Assembly (NCBI RefSeq): GCF_000017545.1
Contig: NC_009718.1
Location: 1,612,001-1,676,000 of the forward strand
Origin: Fervidobacterium nodosum Rt17-B1
Lineage (GTDB): Bacteria > Thermotogota > Thermotogae > Thermotogales > Fervidobacteriaceae
Direction of reading: 5' to 3'
Length of the DNA: 64,000 bases
Positions 35,293 to 36,335 of the stretch are shown here, piece by piece. Below the pieces are notes generated by a model. That model was given only the letters and a program-made list of their open reading frames with translations. It did no database searches and was not told the origin of the DNA. Both the position numbers and the translations under genes were made by a program. Position 1 is the stretch's first letter. Every line of letters starts with the position of its first letter.

Positions 35293-36335
35293 TTATTGTA
35301 GAAAATCTTTTCTAAAATTTTCAAGTCCAGAACTTTCACCAAATAATATTATTTTATCTTTTGAATTTATAATATAGTCTTTTGACGGTCCCATTAAAAA
35401 TTTTTCGTTGTTTATAACACCTACGATAAAAATGTTGTATTTTTCTTTTAACTTTAAATCTTTAATTTTTTCGTCGGAAAGTTTTGTGTTTTCAACATCT
35501 ACAATTTCTACCCTGAAAGTCTTATCTTTTATATTAAGAATGTCAATAACGTTTTCTTTAGGCTTGTTTCCAATCACCGTTTCAACAATTCTAATACTCG
35601 CTATTTCTGCAGTAGCTATTGGATAATCAACTCCTGCGTAAATGAACTTTGTTAAATTAGCAAGATTATTTATGTTAGACACAATGTAAATTTTATTGTT
35701 CAAATTTTTAGCAGTTAACGCAACAAATACATTTAATGAATCGTCTGGAAGAGTAGTTATGAGCGCTCGAGCTTCGCGAAGTCCTGCTTTTAAAAGAGTT
35801 TCTTCGTTTGTGGCATCACCATTTATTAGTATTAGTTTTTCTCTATTACCATGTATTCTTTCAAAAAATGCATTTTCATTTACTTCTTTATCTATAGCTA
35901 CAACTTTTTCATCGTACCTTAATAGTTGGTTGACGACATGCGTGCCGATATTTCCAACACCAACTACTATGATATGGTTTTTCATCTTTGATACCCTTCT
36001 TTCAATTCTTTTTGTTTTAAAGAATTTGTTAAGTTCACCTTCAACGAGTATGGCTGTTATATACGATATACTGTACAAAACGAAAGATAAACCTATTAAA
36101 ATAAGAAATATTGTGAATAGCTTGCCAAATGTAGATAATTCCTTTGGTATTCCGTACCCAACTGTTGAAAGTGTTATCGCAGTAAAAAAGATTGACTCTA
36201 AGAGTGAGTACTTCTCGAAGAAAAAATAATAGAAAGTCCCTACTAAGAATACAACAAGAATACCAATTATTGAGATTGTTATTCTTCTTAAAAATGTTTT
36301 TCAAAAGTTTTTTCTTGAGAGCTATTAGTATTCAT
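35293..36335 (-). CDS. two-TM potassium channel with RCK (TrkA-N) domain; reading frame interrupted near 36290
   Basis: The C-terminal part (from about 35985) is a TrkA-N/RCK domain, starting [19 protein letters not shown], followed by a TrkA-C-like part. Upstream in the same frame, codons at 36151-36165 encode TVGYG, the K+ selectivity filter, between two hydrophobic helices. That frame has no ATG, GTG or TTG upstream and meets a stop at 36301-36303. A second frame starts at ATG 36335 and reads [15 protein letters not shown] before a stop at 36288-36290. One extra base in the T-run at 36290-36294 would join them into about 347 residues. A real mutation, sequencing error or -1 slippage at U-UUU-UAA are all possible. 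An ATG at 35985 behind AGGGT could make the RCK domain alone. Confidence 0.75.

Follow-up and report, generated by a model that had tools for sequence, protein, structure and literature searches.

How a potassium-channel gene comes to be read in a frame that lacks its own start codon is the question raised by one locus of the thermophilic bacterium Fervidobacterium nodosum Rt17-B1. The window analysed, a stretch of 64,000 nucleotides whose numbering is used throughout, comes from a genome assembled as a single contig of 1,948,941 bases, and the gene lies within it on the minus strand, in the order leuS-PPIase-channel-mtnA-serS. The channel frame (35293..36300; 335 codons plus a stop codon at 35293) encodes a first transmembrane helix (TM1), a pore helix, the selectivity filter TVGYG (36151..36165, read from the sequence), a second helix (TM2), a linker and an RCK domain; upstream it opens directly after a TGA (36303-36301), and its first ATG, GTG or TTG is the TTG at 36078, already within TM2. 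The start codon of the gene, ATG 36333..36335, sits instead in a neighbouring frame that reaches a TAA (36290-36288) after 15 codons. This 5′ piece (36288..36335) and the channel frame together make 347 amino acids, as many as the unbroken orthologue of the congener G002 has, and the context of the ATG, GGTGTAAA-N-ATG, is common to G007 and similar in G004. The coordinates, the lack of a start codon in the channel frame and the restored length of about 347 residues had all been given correctly in a preliminary description of the locus, which left three outcomes side by side: a lost channel, an assembly indel, or expression through frameshifting.

By its sequence, the broken gene is an ordinary member of the prokaryotic 2TM-RCK (MthK/Kch-type) family of potassium channels. 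Pfam models placed on the start-less frame are all above their cut-offs (Ion_trans_2, residues 14-86; TrkA_N, 110-228; TrkA_C, 264-333), and the best NCBIfam match is the E. coli Kch model PRK10537.1 (E = 8e-28), which at 97.6 bits stands far below its cut-off of 425. E. coli Kch has six transmembrane helices, whereas the F. nodosum channel has only two. In that respect it is closer to MthK, the calcium-gated potassium channel of Methanothermobacter (PDB 1lnq, 3rbz), with which residues 11-330 align in phmmer (E = 3e-24) and which likewise joins a two-helix pore to a single C-terminal RCK domain. The F. nodosum frame has the two helices around a P-loop with TVGYG, albeit without its start codon, and the C-terminal RCK domain with TrkA_N and TrkA_C; it differs from MthK in being broken near the N-terminus, so that the single continuous frame from a start codon is missing here, although it is present in six orthologues. 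A literature search for a Fervidobacterium potassium channel found nothing.

Those six orthologues, four from the same genus (G002, G004, G006 and G007) and two from its sister genus (G009 and G013), run as one open frame from the matching N-terminus. The 15-codon piece of F. nodosum aligns with MNKDTTTFEGRLKRRIKIS of G002, and the match resumes at equal spacing in the channel frame as FLRRITIS, both flanks of the break thus being homologous to the G002 protein (TFEGRLKRRIKIS on the channel-frame side). Because the relatives’ genes are single-frame and align on both flanks, the F. nodosum break can be read as a derived net loss of one base. That loss necessarily lies within 36288..36303 (minus strand), between the channel-frame TGA and the start-frame TAA, in the sequence AAAAACATTTTT. 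The preliminary description had placed a missing base in the five-T run; the net loss of one base stands, but since the interval holds both an A5 and a T5 run, the T-run is merely one candidate site, and in the DNA alignment the only single-base gap in F. nodosum falls within AAAAAC-ATTTTTAAG, between the two runs. On this comparison, the F. nodosum state is a derived one-base loss, which means a young mutation or a misread base and not a new route to making the protein.

The same alignment bears on whether a full-length channel might nevertheless be produced by a −1 frameshift on U_UUU_UAA, with slippage in the P site at the stop codon, or by slippage of the polymerase. Such recoding has some attraction, in that UUU could re-pair after the −1 step, the zero frame reaches its stop codon at the slip site and the downstream channel frame is conserved; this last feature is also accounted for by the recent loss that we favour, as a young break would leave the downstream homologous frame intact. 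Neither the break nor the slip site, however, occurs at the matching place in any relative: when homologues were compared, as the preliminary description had proposed, those of the genus began in the channel frame itself and had no slip site, so that a new break would have had to land by chance on a working one. The stimulators that might accompany a programmed −1 frameshift were likewise not seen. RNA downstream of the slip site folds no better than shuffled sequence (z = −0.37, in a test of folds other than pseudoknots), and inspection of the sequence found no Shine-Dalgarno-like (SD-like) element just upstream of the site. A run of five Ts is short for transcriptional slippage, and such runs are commonplace. 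We therefore consider recoding unsupported and very unlikely, and of the three outcomes first proposed it is frameshifting that falls away, the lost channel and the indel standing together.

Two further routes were rejected. As no ATG, GTG or TTG precedes TM2 in the channel frame, reinitiation after the 15-codon piece cannot yield a pore. Phase variation would require more of the T-run than its five bases offer: phase-variable homopolymer genes share with this one a frame broken by a single base close to a T-run, but here the run is short, common and not conserved in relatives.

Whether the genus needs the channel can be judged from its other genomes. Among the nine genomes sampled, six carry the gene (F. 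nodosum, G002, G004, G006, G007 and G008), and the order leuS-PPIase-channel-mtnA-serS is constant across the channel-bearing loci compared. In G001 and G003 (loci L136 and L135), PPIase is followed directly by mtnA and the channel is cleanly absent, while genomes of the sister genus retain it between these two genes, which implies that its loss is tolerated. In G008 (L009:1364-2448) the gene has a one-base frame break of independent origin, located at a T-run immediately ahead of the pore helix. TrkH and two TrkA-like genes are found elsewhere in the F. nodosum genome. On these comparisons, the channel gene is dispensable in Fervidobacterium. A wider search of contigs with a single-protein query returned no match, and an alignment query returned 80 loci, most of them distant.

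How old, then, is the break? Amino-acid relative-rate tests against G002 with five outgroups showed no significant acceleration on the F. nodosum branch in either the transmembrane or the RCK part (counts of 34 v 22, 33 v 24 and 28 v 30; χ2 at most 2.6), and the 335-codon channel frame contains no further stop. In simulations of decay, about 0.08 neutral substitutions per site left the frame free of stops in only ~4% of runs; synonymous divergence from G002, the nearest relative, is ~2.2, a saturated and hence rough value. The relaxed selection or additional lesions by which a pseudogene is usually recognized are missing, as expected of a very young break. With no excess of change and no second stop, the break is either very young, spanning at most a few per cent of the branch by this estimate, or not real.

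Since it would have to be so young, an error of sequencing or assembly becomes about equally plausible, with the organism’s gene intact and the record one base short amid A and T runs. The apparently undiminished purifying selection on both parts of the protein, the absence of any other lesion over so long a frame and the location of the break between homopolymer runs all suit such an error, as does the count of two fresh-looking breaks, in F. nodosum and at the G008 T-run, among six gene-bearing congeners, which is many for real mutations. Against it, the genome is a single contig, and in a scan of ~450 kb of it none of the candidate places read proved to be a genuine frame break within a gene, which argues that the sequence is not generally error-rich. 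That scan, which is blind to breaks in the first codons and hence to the channel gene’s own, gave eight candidate rows, from which six places were read (a second copy of a repeated element and a pair of matches below 30% identity were left out); all six were antisense or non-coding open reading frames, CRISPR repeats or a repeated element with an intact frame. Nor is the context of the break error-prone in itself, since T5 runs are very common (2832 in 400 kb of F. nodosum). Separately, a transposase-like element is repeated in the genome, in three or more nearly identical copies (L161:8455-9404, L171:5135-6084 and L171:14969-15918); the two copies read are identical in the stretch compared.

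The two explanations, a genuine break of recent date and an error in the record, thus come out nearly equal, both of them tentative. The reading we favour, at a probability of roughly 0.48, is that a dispensable channel gene recently broke in this lineage alone, when it lost a net one base somewhere between its ATG and TM1, with no programmed recoding involved. Ribosomes starting at ATG 36335 would then halt after 15 codons, so that no pore would be made; a Trk uptake system remains, and translation from a methionine in the linker may still yield a free, soluble RCK domain. The break itself is of minor consequence, marking one gene of a reference genome for rechecking; the more useful result of the comparison is the ribosome-binding site in that linker.

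From the candidate internal start ATG 35983..35985 (minus strand), which has AAGG 9 nt upstream, F. nodosum as sequenced could still make a free RCK protein of 230 residues. A linker methionine in Kch-type proteins has been noted earlier (PMC2920069), and in MthK the known free product, M107-A336 (PMC2573919), is of the same length and starts from a linker methionine at a similar position. Outside Fervidobacterium, most orthologues of the Thermotogales have a methionine seven residues before the first histidine of the RCK domain, with AGGAGG or AAGGAGG 9-12 nt upstream; across L010-L031, the conserved AGGAGG and methionine lie within coding sequence, in the pore-RCK linker just upstream of the RCK domain. 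Of 19 sequences, 15 code the linker Arg-Arg pair as AGG AGG, a spelling used by 12 of the 130 Arg-Arg pairs that lie outside the linker in those loci (P = 3e-10, ignoring relatedness); the linker pattern is seen in six of seven genera. Similarly, SD matches of at least 6 bases precede 27 of 85 linker methionine codons, compared with 8 of 564 other internal ones. These patterns suggest that the Thermotogales linker likely carries an internal ribosome-binding site from which free RCK subunits would be made. Deliberate production of such subunits has been disputed since work on E. coli Kch that PMC2920069 cites; the conserved linker site offers sequence evidence that bacteria make them purposefully, as proposed for MthK.

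In Fervidobacterium the linker methionine comes four residues later, its SD element is weaker and G004 has ATA in its place. That the F. nodosum gene has been converted into one for free RCK alone, starting at ATG 35985, would accord with its AAGG and with the strong SD and methionine of most Thermotogales orthologues. A pure RCK gene, however, would not need its transmembrane part, which is conserved as well as the RCK part, and with so weak a linker SD and no methionine in G004 such a conversion seems improbable in the extreme. Scarcely better, and well below simple recoding, is a scheme in which a −1 slip at U_UUU_UAA would make the full channel and the linker start the free RCK protein, so that the slip rate would determine how many RCK subunits of the gating ring are tethered relative to those that are free.

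Two minor features of the wider family emerged alongside. The last glycine of the filter is replaced in many orthologues of the family and order, an unusual change for a potassium channel: L011, L013-L018 and L020 read TVGYT, TVGYE, TVGYN or TVGYS instead of TVGYG. In L031 (G032, of the same order and a different genus), the channel orthologue is broken within the RCK domain, into frames 1453-1857 and 1961-2491 of the reverse complement.
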